The position numbers were made by a program, and so were the translations under genes. DNA of 64,000 bases. It comes from an uncultured SAR86 cluster bacterium. Its GTDB lineage: Bacteria > Pseudomonadota > Gammaproteobacteria > Magnimaribacterales > AG-339-G14. The stretch covers positions 1 to 64,000 of the forward strand of contig CACEOL010000001.1 in the NCBI GenBank assembly GCA_902561325.1, given 5' to 3'. How positions within the stretch are numbered: the stretch's first letter is position 1; each line of letters starts with the position of its first letter. The notes under the pieces are model-generated. The model did no database searches. It was not told the origin of the DNA and was given only the letters and a program-made list of their open reading frames with translations. Below, piece after piece: positions 24,250 through 31,111 of the stretch.

Positions 24250-25320
24250 ATGAAATATTTAACGGATAATACCAGAATAACAGGCTTGATGGAGGTGTCT
24301 CCTCCCGTGGAAGTTATTGAAAAGCTTCCAATTTCAGAAAAAGTCTCTGAACTAGTTTTCAACTCCAGAAACGAAATCTCAGATATTCTTCATGGTAAAG
24401 AAGATAGATTGGTAGTAGTTGTTGGTCCATGCTCAATCCATGATCCCAAAGCAGCAATCGAGTATGCTAAAAAACTTAAAACTCTTGAAAAAGACTTAAA
24501 AGATCAACTCAAAATAGTTATGAGAGTTTATTTCGAAAAGCCCAGAACGACTGTGGGCTGGAAAGGTCTTATCAACGATCCAAATTTAGATAATAGTTAT
24601 GATGTAAATAAAGGTCTTAAAGTTGCTAGAAAACTCTTGATAAAAATAAATGAATTGGGTTTGCCTGCAGGAACTGAGTTTTTGGATATGATTACTCCCC
24701 AATATATTTCAGACTTGATTTCTTGGGGTGCAATTGGAGCTAGAACTACTGAAAGCCAAATACATAGAGAATTAGCTTCGGGTTTATCTTGTCCAGTTGG
24801 ATTTAAAAATTCTACTAACGGCTCTATTCAAGTTGCTTTGGATGCAATTGGTTCTTCTTCAAACAGTCATATTTTTCTTTCCATCACAAAAGAAGGAAGG
24901 TCTGCTATTTTCAACTCCTCTGGAAATAAAGATTGTCATGTGATTTTAAGAGGCGGAGAATCTCCAAATTATTCGAAAAATGACATTAAAAAGGTTAATG
25001 AGGATTTAAAAAATTCTAATTTAACTCAAAAAATTATGGTTGATATGTCTCATGGAAATAGTCAAAAGCAATTCAAGAAACAACTCATTGTAAATAAAGA
25101 TATCTCTGATCAAATTGCATCAGGAGACCAAAGTATTTTTGGGGTTATGATAGAAAGCAACCTAGAAGAAGGAAACCAAAAAATAGATTCTCTTAAAAAC
25201 CTTAAGTATGGTCAAAGTGTTACTGATGCTTGCGTCAGCTGGAAAGATACAGAAATAATGCTAAAGCTTTTAGCTAAAGCTGTTGATGCTAGGAGAGAAA
25301 AACTTAAGCGTTCTGCCTAA
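24250..25320 (+). CDS. aroG: 3-deoxy-7-phosphoheptulonate synthase (DAHP synthase, AroG type)
   Basis: First enzyme of the shikimate pathway, condensing phosphoenolpyruvate and erythrose 4-phosphate. It has 356 residues, typical of type I-alpha AroF/G/H. Motifs: VVVGPCSIHDPKAA (metal-binding Cys), MRVYFEKPRTTVGWKGLIND, GARTTESQIHRELASGLS, GFKNSTNG and MVDMSHGNSQK. Which aromatic amino acid inhibits it is not evident. The DnaT-like gene begins four bases after its stop, so the replication-type pair at 25325-26852 is probably read from this promoter. Confidence 0.94.
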   Translation: MKYLTDNTRITGLMEVSPPVEVIEKLPISEKVSELVFNSRNEISDILHGKEDRLVVVVGPCSIHDPKAAIEYAKKLKTLEKDLKDQLKIVMRVYFEKPRTTVGWKGLINDPNLDNSYDVNKGLKVARKLLIKINELGLPAGTEFLDMITPQYISDLISWGAIGARTTESQIHRELASGLSCPVGFKNSTNGSIQVALDAIGSSSNSHIFLSITKEGRSAIFNSSGNKDCHVILRGGESPNYSKNDIKKVNEDLKNSNLTQKIMVDMSHGNSQKQFKKQLIVNKDISDQIASGDQSIFGVMIESNLEEGNQKIDSLKNLKYGQSVTDACVSWKDTEIMLKLLAKAVDARREKLKRSA

Positions 25321-25324
25321 GTTT

Positions 25325-26281
25325 ATGTCAAAAAAATTAAATTTATTAAACTTTGATAAAGAAGTTGCACTGAGTATTGGTCTCAACGAAGCGATTGTGC
25401 TTCAGCTATTAAAGACCAAAACAAAACACAGCTTAAGTTTGTTAATTAACAAACTTTCATTCATTGAAGAAAAAGAAATACAAAGAGTTCTTAAAAAACT
25501 TCTTAAACTTAAATTAATAGAAGAGACATCGAAAGAGATTTTTTGTCTTAAATCCAAAAGTGAGAAAATTACTCCAGAGAGAAAGCAAATTATTTCTAAA
25601 GGATATTTTCCTTCTAATAATATCTTGAAAGAGGCAAAAAGCCTCGGCGTTTCTGAGGACTTCATTAAAAATAAAATTCCTGAATTTAGAGCTTATTGGT
25701 CTGATCGAAAGGATAAAAGCTTCTCTTGGGACTATAAATTTCTAAAATATCTTCTGAAAGAATGGAGAGCCCAAGAAGAAAAATTAAATAAAGCATCTAA
25801 AATGAAACCAATTCAAAAAAATTGGAAACCTTCAGAAGAAGCATTACAAATATTAAAACATGCCGAAATAGACGAAAAATTTATCGTAGATGCCTTACCA
25901 GAATTTATCTTATATTGGAGTGAAAGAAATACTCCATCTGATTCATGGAATAGTAAATTTCTAAACCATATTAAAAATCAATGGGTCAGGTATCAAAATT
26001 TGATTTCTATAGTAAAAAAACCAACCAGGATGAATAAAGATTGGAAACCTTCAGAAGATTGTTTCGATGTTTTGAGTTTAGCGAAGATAAATAAAAGTTT
26101 TGCCGTATCTCAAATACCAGAATTTAAATTATATTGGCTGGAAACAAAAGAAATGCGTAATTGCTGGAATTCAAAATTCATACAACATGTAAAATTTAAA
26201 TGGAAAGCTAAACATGGTAATACAAAAAATGTATTATCAAGATTAAGAGATCATGAGTGGGCAGTTAACTTCAAAAATTAA
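25325..26281 (+). CDS. Replication-associated protein with three tandem DnaT-like domains
   Basis: A 318-residue protein. I chose the ATG at 25325, four bases after aroG; longer in-frame starts run back into aroG. The N-terminus (about 8-75) looks like a winged helix (VALSIGLNEAIVLQLL then IEEKEIQRVLKKLLKLKLIEE). Three copies of a DnaT-type DNA-binding domain follow at about 94-147, 167-220 and 239-293, each with PEF-x2-YW (119-125, 192-198, 265-271) and a W-x2-KF(L/I) to W segment (134-147, 207-220, 280-293); the second and third begin with NWKPSEE or DWKPSED. E. coli DnaT has one such domain and helps pass DnaB helicase to DNA. Next to a lambda P-like gene, this suggests helicase loading or replication restart. 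Family call by eye; role inferred. Confidence 0.78.
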   Translation: MSKKLNLLNFDKEVALSIGLNEAIVLQLLKTKTKHSLSLLINKLSFIEEKEIQRVLKKLLKLKLIEETSKEIFCLKSKSEKITPERKQIISKGYFPSNNILKEAKSLGVSEDFIKNKIPEFRAYWSDRKDKSFSWDYKFLKYLLKEWRAQEEKLNKASKMKPIQKNWKPSEEALQILKHAEIDEKFIVDALPEFILYWSERNTPSDSWNSKFLNHIKNQWVRYQNLISIVKKPTRMNKDWKPSEDCFDVLSLAKINKSFAVSQIPEFKLYWLETKEMRNCWNSKFIQHVKFKWKAKHGNTKNVLSRLRDHEWAVNFKN

Positions 26282-26852
26282 AATACCTAAAAGCCAAGTA
26301 GAGCTAATTAATCTCATTTTTGCCGAATTAGAAATTACTTTTCACAATCAATTTCATAAAGCATTTCCTGATGAGGAAACCCTTACCTTAGCTAAGCAAC
26401 TTTGGCTTGCAAAACTAGAAAAATATCAAAATGAGATAGTATTCAGAGCAATAGATAAAATCATAGAAACTTCAAAATATTTGCCATCTCTGAGTTCGGT
26501 TTTAAATCAAATTAAAGAATTAAAACTTCGTGAACAAAACATCCCTTCTTCAAACGCTGCTTACATTGAAGCTAGTTCTTTAGGAGAGACAAGTCCTATG
26601 GATTTTAATTGGTCACACCCATTCATTTATCATGCTGGTGCAAAAGTAGGCTGGTATAGACTAAAAACAGAATCTGAATTCGATATAAAAAAGGAATTCT
26701 TAAGTGTTTACGAGAAAATATTAGAAGAAAGTGAATTCAAGGAAAGCTTGCTCCTTTTGCCGGTAAATAATGAAGAAATGACCGACGAAAAACCTCTTTC
26801 AAGTGAAAAACAAAAAGAAAGATTGGAAGATATAAAAAAGAAATATTTATAG
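26253..26852 (+). CDS. Lambda P-like replicative helicase loader
   Basis: A 199-residue protein resembling phage lambda replication protein P in its whole layout: an N-terminal helical part (IFAELEITFHNQFHKAF, residues 22-38), LAKQLWLAKL, KYLPSLSSVLNQIKEL (75-90, compare the LPSPGQFVAW region of P), the conserved HPFIYHAGAKVGWYRL (122-137), and a C-terminal KQKERLEDIKKKYL. Lambda P recruits and loads DnaB at the origin. It overlaps the DnaT-like gene by 29 bases, so the two are coupled. No other phage genes are near and base composition matches the neighbours, so it looks domesticated. A short gap then leads to the RND operon. Confidence 0.75.
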   Translation: MSGQLTSKIKIPKSQVELINLIFAELEITFHNQFHKAFPDEETLTLAKQLWLAKLEKYQNEIVFRAIDKIIETSKYLPSLSSVLNQIKELKLREQNIPSSNAAYIEASSLGETSPMDFNWSHPFIYHAGAKVGWYRLKTESEFDIKKEFLSVYEKILEESEFKESLLLLPVNNEEMTDEKPLSSEKQKERLEDIKKKYL

Positions 26853-26907: not shown

Positions 26908-27963
26908 ATGAGTATAGTTACAAGGCTTCTTTCTAGATCCAACTTAGAATGGGCATCAATTTTTATTGGTTTTGCAATTATCTGGATGGTCTCCGGATTA
27001 TTTGTTCAAGAACCAGCTCCTCCAGCATTGATTGAAAAAAAAGATGCAGTAGTTAGGGTCATCGATCAGAAAGCAGAAAATTTTTCCAAGGAAATTGTAG
27101 TCAAAGGCTTTACTAAAGCTGATAAAAAAGTATTAGTTAAATCAGAAACCTCTGGAAAAATAATTGAACTACCAGTAGAACAAGGTTCTTTCATAAAAAA
27201 AGGAGAAGTAATTTGTTCCCTATTTGTTGCAGAAAGGCAGGCTAATTTTGATAAAGCTTTACTTGATTATAATTCTGCAAAAAAACTTTTCGAAGAAGAG
27301 CTTTATTCATCCAAACAACTCCAAAATGCAAAATCAAATTATGAGAGAGCTAAGTTAGAATTGGACTATGCAAAAATCAAAGCTCCATTTGATGGCGTGG
27401 TAGATAAGATTGATCTGGATGTTGGAGATTTTTTAAACCGTGGATCAACTTGTGCTACTGTTTTGGATTTAGACCCAATGATGGTAACAGGAGATATTTC
27501 TGAAAGTGAACTTTTAACTTTTACAAAAGATAGTGGTGTAAAAGTTATTACAAATGACGGTCAAGAGTATCAAGGTAATATCACCTTTATCTCATCATCT
27601 GCAGATGAAATGATGCATACTTTTGACATAGAAATTTCAATTCCCAATCCACTTAGAAAAATCAAAGATGGTCAAACTGCTAAAGTAATAGTCTCAGCTA
27701 CCCCACAACCTGCTCACATTGTCCCGCTATCAATTCTTCGATTAGATGAGGCAGGCAACATTGGCGTAAGAGTCGTAAATAAAGATAACCTAGTTGAGTT
27801 TTATACAGTTGAAATAATTCAAGATACAGAGAATGGTGTTTGGGTCTCTGGTCTTCCTTTCAATTCAAGAATCATTACTGTTGGTCAGGACTACGTCAAT
27901 AATAATGAAAAAGTCGATATTGCCATTGACTATAGACTGAATAAGGATGAAAACATTAATTGA
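26908..27963 (+). CDS. RND efflux periplasmic adaptor subunit (membrane fusion protein)
   Basis: A 351-residue membrane fusion protein that would link the inner membrane pump to an outer membrane channel. Residues about 14-31 form a single N-terminal membrane anchor (WASIFIGFAIIWMVSGLF) without a lipobox. A biotinyl/lipoyl-like half (VKSETSGKIIELPVEQGSFIKKG), a short coiled-coil hairpin and the second half (KIKAPFDGVVDKIDLDVGD) follow, then the beta-barrel. It overlaps the pump gene by 17 bases. No TolC-type gene is in the window. The substrate is unknown. Confidence 0.88.
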   Translation: MSIVTRLLSRSNLEWASIFIGFAIIWMVSGLFVQEPAPPALIEKKDAVVRVIDQKAENFSKEIVVKGFTKADKKVLVKSETSGKIIELPVEQGSFIKKGEVICSLFVAERQANFDKALLDYNSAKKLFEEELYSSKQLQNAKSNYERAKLELDYAKIKAPFDGVVDKIDLDVGDFLNRGSTCATVLDLDPMMVTGDISESELLTFTKDSGVKVITNDGQEYQGNITFISSSADEMMHTFDIEISIPNPLRKIKDGQTAKVIVSATPQPAHIVPLSILRLDEAGNIGVRVVNKDNLVEFYTVEIIQDTENGVWVSGLPFNSRIITVGQDYVNNNEKVDIAIDYRLNKDENIN

Positions 27964-30900
27964 TTTTTTTGTAGACCGTTACAAAGCTACATTTACATTT
28001 CTAACCTTTGTATTGGTCTGGGGATTTACCTCTGTTATACAAATTCCAGCATCTGCCTATTCAGACATCAATATTCCTTATGTTTTTGTTTCTACCTACT
28101 ACGATGGCGTTTCTGCACAAGACTCAGAAAGGCTTGTTACTAGGCCAATAGAACAAAAATTAAAAACTGCAGATGAGTTAGTAGATATTCAATCTTATAG
28201 CAGACAAAACATGTCTTACGTGATTTTAGAATTTCCGGTTGAATATTCCAAAGATAAGGCAGTACAAGATGTCAAAGACCTTATTGACGAGGTAAAACAA
28301 GAGTTACCATCAGAATCAGATGATCCTGTAGTAAAAGAGTTTACTCTGGATGAATTTCCAATTATGGATATAAATCTGATTTCAAGTTCATCAAACCAAC
28401 GTGAACTGTTGGCTTTTGCAAGGCAATTACAAACTTCGATAGAAGCATTACCCGATGTTTTGGAAGCTCAACTTAGAGGTGTTCCTGATGACTTACTTGA
28501 AGCTTCCATAGATAAAACAAAACTAGAAAGCTATAACGTATCTCCGAGAGATTTATACAACGCAATTGGAGATGCAAATAGAGCAATTCCAGCAGGCGAC
28601 CTAAGGTCAGCAACAGGTAAATTTTCCGTTTTAGTGCCATCTGTTTTTGAGGATGTGACTGATGTTGAGAACATTCCAGTTATTGAAAGCAATGGAAAAG
28701 TAATTACTCTAAAAGATCTAGTTACCCTTAAAAGAACATTTAAAGATAGAGATTCCTTTTCCAGGGTAAATGGAAAAGATTCTGTGACGCTGTCAATTAT
28801 GAAAAGACAGGATGCCAAAGAAGTTGTAGCAGCAGCAAAAGTAAACTATGTCTTAGATGAGTTTCGACCTAACTTGCCGGCAGGAGTAGAATTAATAATC
28901 ACGCAAGATAGAACCGGTTGGTCTTCTATGATGGTTGGTGAGTTGGGAGGAAATATTCTAACTGCATTAATTTTAGTGATGACAATTGTTGTTGGAACAA
29001 TGGGATTGAGGTCTTCGACAATGGTTGCAATGGCCATTCCGACCTGTTTTCTTTTTGCATCAATTTTTTTAGCTGCAATAGATTACAGCTTTAATTTTAT
29101 GGTTTGTTTTGGACTATTAATATCTTTAGGTATGTTGATAGACGGTTGTGTTGTGGTAGTTGAGTATGCTGATAGAAAAATGGCTGAGGGTTTTGAAAGA
29201 ATTGAAGCATATAAGTTTTCCGCAAAAAGAATGTTTTGGCCTGTCACAATTTCAATAGGTACAACCTTATCTATTTTTGTTCCAATGTTTTTTATGCCAG
29301 GAGTTTCTGGACAATTTTTAAGGCCAATGATTACAACATTGTTTATTGTCTTATCGGGTTCGGTATTGTATGCATTAGTCTTCACTCCAGCTATTGGGTC
29401 TAGATTTGGCAATTTGGGAATTAGAAAATCTAGAACCTTAGAAAATGCCAGTATTCTTGAGCATGGAGATCCCACACAAATTGATGGTCTTACAGGTACG
29501 TACGCGAGAGCCTTAAGAAAGGTGATTCAATCTCCCGGGAAATTCGCCGTCTTTGTCATTTTATCAGTTGTGACAATTTTCATGTTGTACGGTGAACATG
29601 CTCCTGGAAGTAGGTTCTTCATTGAAGAAGAGCCGATGGAAATGGAAGTAAAAATTGAAGGTCGAGGCAGTTTTGGTGAGTCGGAAAAATTAGGTTTCTT
29701 AAAAGAAATTGAAGATATTGTTTTAAGCATTCCCGGTCCACGATCTATTTCTTTGAATATGAATGGCGTTGCGGATCCCAGAGATAGAGGTAATTCAGAT
29801 GAAATAGGAACCATTTTTATTGAAATGCCTTTTGAAAAAAATCTGCAACGTACAGGCTGGGATGTATACGATGAACTTTTGGAAAAAACCAAAGATATTC
29901 CGGGACTAGTAGTAAATGCAAAGATTAGAGAAAATGGCCCGCCAACCGACTCTCCAATAGAGATAGATGTATTTGGTAAAGATTTTGACATGGTAACTGA
30001 TGCAACCATTGCTTTAACGAAGTATATGAAAGATTCTGTTCCAGGCGCAAAAAATATCTATAACACCATTCCAACAAATCTTTTGAAATGGACAATTAAA
30101 ATTGATAAAGAAAGAGCAAGGCAATTTGGAGTAGCAACTCAAGATATTGGAGCAGCAATTCAATTTATGACTGCTGGGGTAAAAGTAGGGGAATACAGAC
30201 CCGCAGACTTAGATGAAGAAGTAGACATCAGAGTTAGATTTCCAGCTGATCAGAGAAGATTAGATCAGTTCAATGAACTAACTGTAAACACAAGATTTGG
30301 ACAAGCCCCATTGAGTAGTTTTGTAGAGGTCGTTCCAGCCTATATTCCACCTTCTATTCGAAGAGTATCTGGAGAAAGAGCTTTTACTGTAGCAGCAGAG
30401 TATGCAAAAGGCTCTTTAGTGGAGGATGTAATTCCAAAAATTGAGCAGTGGATAGCTGATAACAATGAGTACGAACGATTGCAATTTAGGTTTGGTGGAC
30501 AACAAGCGGAGTCTGATGCAAACTCGGCTTTCTTTCTGTTTGCTTTTATTGTTGGCATATTTTTAATGTCGATTTTGTTGATGGTTCAACTTAACAGTTT
30601 CTATCAAGTTTTTGTAATCGTATCTGCCGTAATATTATCTACTGCTGGGGTTTTGCTTGGTTTATTGGTAACACAACAAGTTTCTAGCTCTTTATTTACA
30701 AGTTTAGGAGTTATTGCTTTGGCAGGAATTGTTGTCAACAATAATATTGTTCTAGTTGATACATACAATGTAATCACTAAAGAGAATCCAAATTTATCCA
30801 GAGAGCAAATAGTAATTCGTACAGCTGCGCAAAGACTAAGACCTATTATCCTAACGACAGCAACTACTGTTATCGGGTTATTACCATTGGCTTTGGGGAT

Positions 30901-31111
30901 TGGTGTAGATTTTTATCAAAGAAGTGTTGAAGTCGGAGGAAGAGTTTCCGAGTGGTGGCAACCTATGTCTTTTGCTGTTGTTTGTGGTCTGTCTTTCGCT
31001 TCAGCATTAACCTTGTTCTTAACACCTTGTTGGCTTATGCTACCTGAAGCTATAAGAAAAACATTCAGAAACGTAAAAAACATATTTTTAAAAACAGCCA
31101 GTGAACGATAA
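27947..31111 (+). CDS. RND-family efflux transporter permease
   Basis: A 1054-residue inner membrane pump of the HAE/AcrB-like superfamily with the 12-helix, two large periplasmic loop layout. In helix 4 the proton-relay position reads GMLIDGCVVVVEYADR (near residue 398): only the first of the two Asp of AcrB (DD) is kept, the second being Gly. Helix 10 reads GIVVNNNIVLVD where AcrB has a Lys in AKNAI. It therefore belongs to a subclass different from AcrB/MexB. Upstream is its adaptor; xseB begins inside its last codons. The substrate cannot be deduced. Confidence 0.9.
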   Translation: MKTLIDFFVDRYKATFTFLTFVLVWGFTSVIQIPASAYSDINIPYVFVSTYYDGVSAQDSERLVTRPIEQKLKTADELVDIQSYSRQNMSYVILEFPVEYSKDKAVQDVKDLIDEVKQELPSESDDPVVKEFTLDEFPIMDINLISSSSNQRELLAFARQLQTSIEALPDVLEAQLRGVPDDLLEASIDKTKLESYNVSPRDLYNAIGDANRAIPAGDLRSATGKFSVLVPSVFEDVTDVENIPVIESNGKVITLKDLVTLKRTFKDRDSFSRVNGKDSVTLSIMKRQDAKEVVAAAKVNYVLDEFRPNLPAGVELIITQDRTGWSSMMVGELGGNILTALILVMTIVVGTMGLRSSTMVAMAIPTCFLFASIFLAAIDYSFNFMVCFGLLISLGMLIDGCVVVVEYADRKMAEGFERIEAYKFSAKRMFWPVTISIGTTLSIFVPMFFMPGVSGQFLRPMITTLFIVLSGSVLYALVFTPAIGSRFGNLGIRKSRTLENASILEHGDPTQIDGLTGTYARALRKVIQSPGKFAVFVILSVVTIFMLYGEHAPGSRFFIEEEPMEMEVKIEGRGSFGESEKLGFLKEIEDIVLSIPGPRSISLNMNGVADPRDRGNSDEIGTIFIEMPFEKNLQRTGWDVYDELLEKTKDIPGLVVNAKIRENGPPTDSPIEIDVFGKDFDMVTDATIALTKYMKDSVPGAKNIYNTIPTNLLKWTIKIDKERARQFGVATQDIGAAIQFMTAGVKVGEYRPADLDEEVDIRVRFPADQRRLDQFNELTVNTRFGQAPLSSFVEVVPAYIPPSIRRVSGERAFTVAAEYAKGSLVEDVIPKIEQWIADNNEYERLQFRFGGQQAESDANSAFFLFAFIVGIFLMSILLMVQLNSFYQVFVIVSAVILSTAGVLLGLLVTQQVSSSLFTSLGVIALAGIVVNNNIVLVDTYNVITKENPNLSREQIVIRTAAQRLRPIILTTATTVIGLLPLALGIGVDFYQRSVEVGGRVSEWWQPMSFAVVCGLSFASALTLFLTPCWLMLPEAIRKTFRNVKNIFLKTASER

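Follow-up and report, generated by a model that had tools for sequence, protein, structure and literature searches.

Substitutes for the known loaders of the replicative helicase, derived from phage lambda, were reportedly recognised by Brezellec et al. in 2017 and named dopC and dopE. The order Cellvibrionales is reported to lack both dciA and dna[CI] (Brezellec 2016, PMC5109545), and DopE is listed as a loader family in a paper of 2026 (PMC13326638). Lambda P binds DnaB through residues 103-233; cross-linking locates its final 60 residues at the CTD of DnaB, and its C-terminal segment has been modelled beside the DnaB linker helix, with a sequence assignment that the authors call tentative (PMC6391071). 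The linker-helix/docking-helix site of DnaB is common to DciA, DnaC and lambda P (PMC9912922). No biochemical test of DopC or DopE was found in the literature. We know of no Dop pair for which the bringing of DnaB to oriC has been shown.

The window (the whole stretch of DNA that was analysed, 64,000 nucleotides) has a G+C content of 34% and belongs to a 1.17-Mb genome that is 87% complete. It contains a gene for a DnaT-repeat protein and, overlapping it, a gene for a lambda P-like protein, with the following features and neighbours:

24250..25320, + strand: aroG-like DAHP synthase gene, the upstream neighbour, conserved across the order
25325..26281, + strand: dopC-like gene (318 aa), an open reading frame with a winged-helix-like N-terminal domain and three DnaT (PF17948) domains, Cellvibrionales DopC-type orthologue
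25325..25560, + strand: DopC N-terminal region, approximately residues 1-78, predicted winged helix (model of a sister-family orthologue, Foldseek)
25562..25762, + strand: first DnaT-type domain of DopC, residues 80-146 (phrog_1408 stretch 80-146; PF17948 stretches)
25808..25999, + strand: second DnaT domain of DopC (PF17948, E 2.9e-24)
26027..26224, + strand: third DnaT domain of DopC (PF17948, E 4.5e-23)
26225..26278, + strand: C-terminal end of DopC with the conserved D-x-x-W-A motif (RLRDHEWAVNF), without a DopE-type tail
26253..26852, + strand: dopE-like gene (199 aa), lambda P-type (PHROG 109, PF06992, model match to lambda P)
26292..26537, + strand: DopE N-terminal helical domain, residues 14-95, with the fold of the lambda P N-domain and SPP1 G39P
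26538..26741, + strand: DopE middle domain, residues 96-163, with a W-S-H-P motif, matching the lambda P middle domain (8v9s)
26802..26849, + strand: DopE C-terminal tail helix, residues 184-199 (isolated helix in the model; tail profile)
26908..27963, + strand: RND membrane-fusion protein (MFP) gene, the downstream neighbour, conserved
27947-31111: RND pump, after the MFP gene

The first-pass annotation, which was made from the sequence alone, had described three DnaT-type domains in a gene that runs by 29 bases into a lambda P-like gene, tied to aroG by a four-base gap and without phage genes nearby, and this description holds in each of its parts. The open reading frames, PF17948 and PHROG 109 agree on the two proteins and on the 29-base overlap of the dopE start with the 3′ end of dopC; the dopC ATG (25325) comes four bases past the aroG stop codon (25318-25320); and there are no phage genes beside the pair in the window, where an RND membrane-fusion protein and pump follow downstream, the locus being the same in four families. 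Both domains expected at first pass, DnaT and Phage_lambda_P, were matched in profile searches. DopC matches the Pfam DnaT family PF17948 with an E value of 1.5e-60 over three stretches (201 bits in total, for a cut-off of 25), and DopE matches PHROG 109, the “P-like helicase loader”, over residues 11-198 (E 1.8e-15) and Phage_lambda_P PF06992 with an E value of 1.2e-5 and 25.6 bits, slightly below the curated cut-off of 26 bits.

Among phage proteins, DopE comes nearest to the replication P proteins of Pseudomonas and Halomonas phages, with approximately 25% identity, and a scan of viral contigs with a DopE alignment confirmed no relative. The PHROG matches of DopC are replication initiation proteins only, with the best stretches within the DnaT part; DopC has no match to the Pfam phage O families at E values up to 1, and a search with a Cellvibrionales DopC returned no phage record.

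In the predicted model of DopE (pLDDT 80), the N-domain and the middle domain are followed by a linker of low confidence (approximately residues 164-183) and a C-terminal helix that stands by itself (184-198). Among solved structures, the model best matches lambda P in its complex with DnaB (9oa1; Foldseek probability 1.00, E 8.9e-4), which by VIA aligns over 179 residues (16-199 against 37-227) with Z 10.3 and rmsd 8.5 and scores above all unrelated rows; the high rmsd for the whole protein is perhaps due to hinged domains. Taken singly, the N-domain matches SPP1 G39P (1no1) with Z 9.0 and rmsd 1.9 over 67 residues, and the middle domain matches the lambda P structure 8v9s with Z 6.3 and rmsd 2.3. 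The window pair resembles lambda O/P (9oa1, 9oa2, 8v9s) in having a P-type N-domain, a middle domain and a C-terminal helix, and in having an initiator gene that adjoins the loader gene, whereas it differs in being chromosomal and without a phage, in the DnaT repeats of DopC, and in that DopC gave no direct match to lambda O. The N-terminal region of a sister-family DopC model finds winged-helix domains in Foldseek, with probabilities up to 0.99 at E values above 0.1. DopC shares the DnaT domain (PF17948) with E. coli DnaT and has a weak profile match to 4ou6/4ou7, but DnaT has one repeat, whereas DopC has two or three and is paired with a P-type loader.

When named genomes were scanned with an alignment of the DnaT repeats, the best 80 of 506 came from Cellvibrionales and their relatives (Porticoccus, Marinimicrobium, Cellvibrio, SAR92, HTCC2143, Teredinibacter, Halieaceae and Pseudohongiella). 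A P-like gene comes after dopC at 77 of these 80 loci, most often with an overlap of 89 bases, and at the other three the contig ends within 403 bases of dopC. As in the window, these are overlapping chromosomal genes for a DnaT-repeat protein and a lambda P-type protein, in a host lineage from which DciA and DnaC are absent; the D-x-x-W-A motif closes DopC (DRSWA there, RLRDHEWAVNF here) and an L-x-x-L-R/K tail closes DopE. The differences are that the aroG and RND operon neighbours were not found at the 80 loci, that the proteins in the window's order are somewhat smaller, and that two sister families here have lost DopE and now have its tail on DopC. Judged by sequence, the two window genes are orthologues of those in Cellvibrionales and, by that assignment, are the DopC/DopE system, now in a second order of streamlined gammaproteobacteria. 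Genome size, composition and the way the order divides into families make this order probably SAR86. The names dopC and dopE are used here on the basis of this orthology and not of published DopC/DopE sequences.

Within the window's order, 151 genomes from four families were available: f1 (the window's own), f2, f3 and f4. DopC is present in 133 of the 151, with all four families represented. DopE was found in 36 f1 and 50 f3 genomes, by single-sequence and profile searches, neither of which detected it in f2 or f4. All 36 f1 genomes that have dopC also have dopE and, contig breaks aside, the same is true of every f1 and f3 genome with dopC. Upstream of dopC lies aroG, in 30/30 f1, 27/30 f2, 19/19 f3 and 9/9 f4 genomes, and downstream lies the MFP gene (30, 29, 18 and 9 of the same 30, 30, 19 and 9), which in f2 and f4 comes directly after dopC. 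Across 15 genomes of the window's genus, dN/dS is approximately 0.10 for dopC and 0.09 for dopE. This selection, with the recurrence of the pair in 36/36 f1 genomes with dopC, excludes chance open reading frames; dopC and dopE are resident in the genome, evolve under purifying selection and are no remnant of a prophage. One single-contig, near-complete f4 genome, G048 (L268-L320), was considered as a case of real dopC loss and set aside: the whole aroG-dopC-MFP-RND block is missing from it, probably because the assembly is incomplete, deletion of the block being a possible cause.

Short forms of DopE were also seen. In the f3 genus g11 (L068, L220-L224), DopE is 142-147 aa long, keeping the N-domain and the tail while the middle domain is gone; this holds in 6/6 genomes read and is a third kind of DopE reduction. 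L110 (JAHRAO010000038.1, MEX2-MAG4) similarly has DopC and a 169-aa P-like protein without the middle domain. In one family (L091 and L098 of G190, and L095 of G330), P-like proteins of 155-185 aa consist of N-domain and tail, and G190 has two short copies on separate contigs. An unrelated gammaproteobacterium, G310, has a 385-aa open reading frame (L092:712-1869) in which a DopC-like N-terminal region, a P-type N-domain and a DopE-like tail are joined, which is another natural fusion. SPP1 G39P, with its shared N-domain fold, has an N-domain-plus-tail plan that resembles the short DopE of g11.

The known bacterial loaders were sought across the order. DciA (PF05258) is in none of the 151 genomes, the window's included, although the absence from the window's own genome, which is 87% complete, leans partly on its relatives; the controls for this search gave matches in 7 of 14 control genomes, with no gammaproteobacterium among those seven. 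Matches to PF01695 (DnaC/IstB) over the cut-off are nearly all DnaA-sized open reading frames of about 415-520 aa, the rest being contig-edge fragments or lying inside an 808-aa protein, and this search revealed no recognisable DnaC in the 151 genomes. The Dop pair would share with DciA and the DnaC/DnaI loaders the delivery of DnaB, its proposed role, but they are unrelated to it in sequence and were not found in the order. DnaB itself is single-copy in 17/17 genomes tested. This leaves dopC/dopE as the only recognisable candidate for a helicase loader in the order, although a loader of a kind unlike DciA, DnaC or P may exist as well. The mention, at first pass, of dopC and dopE as a third type of loader fits the orthology with the Cellvibrionales pair.

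The pair is very probably a domesticated phage-type loader of the replicative helicase, of the DopC/DopE kind, that replaces DciA and DnaC in this order. The chromosomal, phage-derived loader proposed at first pass is supported by the profiles, the orthology, the absence of other loaders and the lambda P fold, while the loading itself we infer. A pair that served replication restart only, in the way that DnaT works with PriA in E. coli, would require another factor to load DnaB at oriC, yet neither DciA nor DnaC is left for this purpose. It is true that the DnaT domain is defined by a restart protein, and a search for priA, priB and priC, genes also named at first pass, gave a PriA match that passes the cut-off in 14 of the 17 genomes. 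The same search found PriC in 0/17 and PriB over the cut-off in 0/17, so that, in contrast to the PriA-PriB-DnaT restart of E. coli, PriB and PriC were not found here and DnaC is absent, and the restart machinery of the order looks reduced to PriA and the Dop proteins. Moreover, G016 (f1, single-contig, 97% complete) has kept dopC and dopE with no PriA match over the cut-off, its best match in the PriA search being a 980-aa, Mfd-sized open reading frame (G016:C1; loci L024, L230, L264); this missing match leans mildly towards a PriA-independent role of the pair, and a restriction to restart is unlikely. That the pair has a genuine and necessary function other than the loading of DnaB, e.g. regulating DnaA or protecting single-stranded DNA while DnaB loads itself, is more improbable still: it has been proposed that the helicases of some bacteria load themselves, and the contact between DopE and DnaB is a predicted one, but the lambda P fold, the retention of the tail (see below) and the consistent absence of every other known loader speak against it. 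As for a prophage remnant that persists by chance, the fact that DopE has its nearest phage relatives among the P replication proteins of Pseudomonas and Halomonas phages would suit it, whereas it is refuted by the near-universal presence at the same locus in four families, and dN/dS of about 0.1 with no phage genes alongside also argues against it; it can be given practically no weight.

The loader reading is extended by what has happened to DopE in f2 and f4. DopC ends there as ...LENLKKKHHI (f2) and ...LTNLRDKYKI (f4), and the DopE proteins of the other two families end as ...LEDIKKKYL (f1) and ...LEKLRKKHNI (f3). Among the proteins read, the DopE-type tail is on DopC in 30/30 f2 and 9/9 f4 genomes and in 0/30 f1 and 0/19 f3 genomes, f1 and f3 having it on DopE (in one f3 genome a contig end truncates DopE). 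In the model of an f2 DopC, a winged helix and three DnaT domains are followed by a disordered stretch and, at 347-360, by an isolated helix predicted with confidence. With f1 and f3 DopE as its only training set, a tail model gives 15.1 ± 4.7 bits for the f2/f4 DopC ends as against 0.6 ± 1.1 for those of f1/f3, and at most 3.9 bits for Cellvibrionales DopC ends. That the f2/f4 tail is a chance or convergent basic helix and no fusion is quite unlikely: the motif is short and 36 of 1950 composition-matched shuffles reach 9.4 bits, which is the maximum in 1008 unrelated C-termini, but shuffled f2/f4 ends average 3.2 bits, 33 of the 39 f2/f4 ends lie above all of the unrelated C-termini, the tail is present in every f2 and f4 protein read, and it occurs at the orthologous locus precisely where dopE is missing. 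A tail model built from Cellvibrionales alone placed only 1/9 f4 tails above the 99.5th percentile. In the phages, the lambda P tail scores 8.3 bits, with 0/1000 shuffles as good and a null maximum of 10.3, which gives modest support to homology with the DopE tail, whereas the tail of SPP1 G39P fails to match the tail model (1.4 bits, 524/1000 shuffles as good).

Since Cellvibrionales DopC is without the tail and Cellvibrionales DopE has it, the tail on DopE is likely to be the ancestral state. A marker tree of DnaA, DnaN, RecF and GyrB from 20 genomes places f1 and f2 against f3 and f4 with full support, and f2 and f4 as one side are rejected on it (p-AU 2.7e-6); the DopC gene tree is uninformative on a sister relationship of f2 with f4 (AU 0.37 and 0.51). 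As f2 and f4 are rejected as a clade, fusion of the tail and loss of the DopE body need two events, or one event and a transfer. By the DnaA-DnaN-RecF-GyrB tree, on which the two-event claim rests, there were probably two fusions of the tail to DopC. We consider it reasonably probable that f2 and f4 lost the body of DopE while its DnaB-docking tail helix became fused to the DNA-binding DopC, and that a two-protein loader was thereby cut to one protein at least twice. Leaving aside the 2017 dopC/dopE paper, no published description of a tail transfer or a single-protein form was found, and the reduced form in the sister families is, as far as found, undescribed.

From the computed gene content, orthology, genomic fixation, selection, absence of loaders, predicted lambda P fold and exchange of the tail, we infer a contact between DopC and DopE, a contact with DnaB and the loading reaction, which we think most likely to proceed as follows. 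DopC would use its DnaT repeats and winged helix to bind opened DNA, either at oriC or at a fork. DopE would join DopC through its N-domain, a part that would become dispensable once the tail was covalently on DopC. The middle domain and C-terminal helix of DopE would grip DnaB at the linker-helix/docking-helix site and open the ring, and DopE would deliver the DnaB ring to the single strand held by DopC. In f2 and f4, tethering of DnaB by the tail alone would suffice. The DnaB linker and docking helices vary between the families, with no simple pattern according to the presence or absence of DopE. The loss of the DopE body with the tail kept on DopC, in two families, suggests that docking on DnaB cannot do without the tail; the tail helix looks like a minimal DnaB-docking element.

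The Dop pair bears on the loading of the replicative helicase in bacteria that have neither DnaC nor DciA, and the range of DopC/DopE now includes one more order of streamlined bacteria, where no other candidate loader is known. Retention of the tail at one locus, apparently twice, points to the minimal part of such a loader, and a peptide of about 15 residues should bind DnaB. If the reduction is as proposed, recruitment of the helicase would need only a protein of single-strand-binding repeats and a short, flexibly tethered docking helix, and the single-protein form would work without a separate ring-opening domain and without an ATPase.
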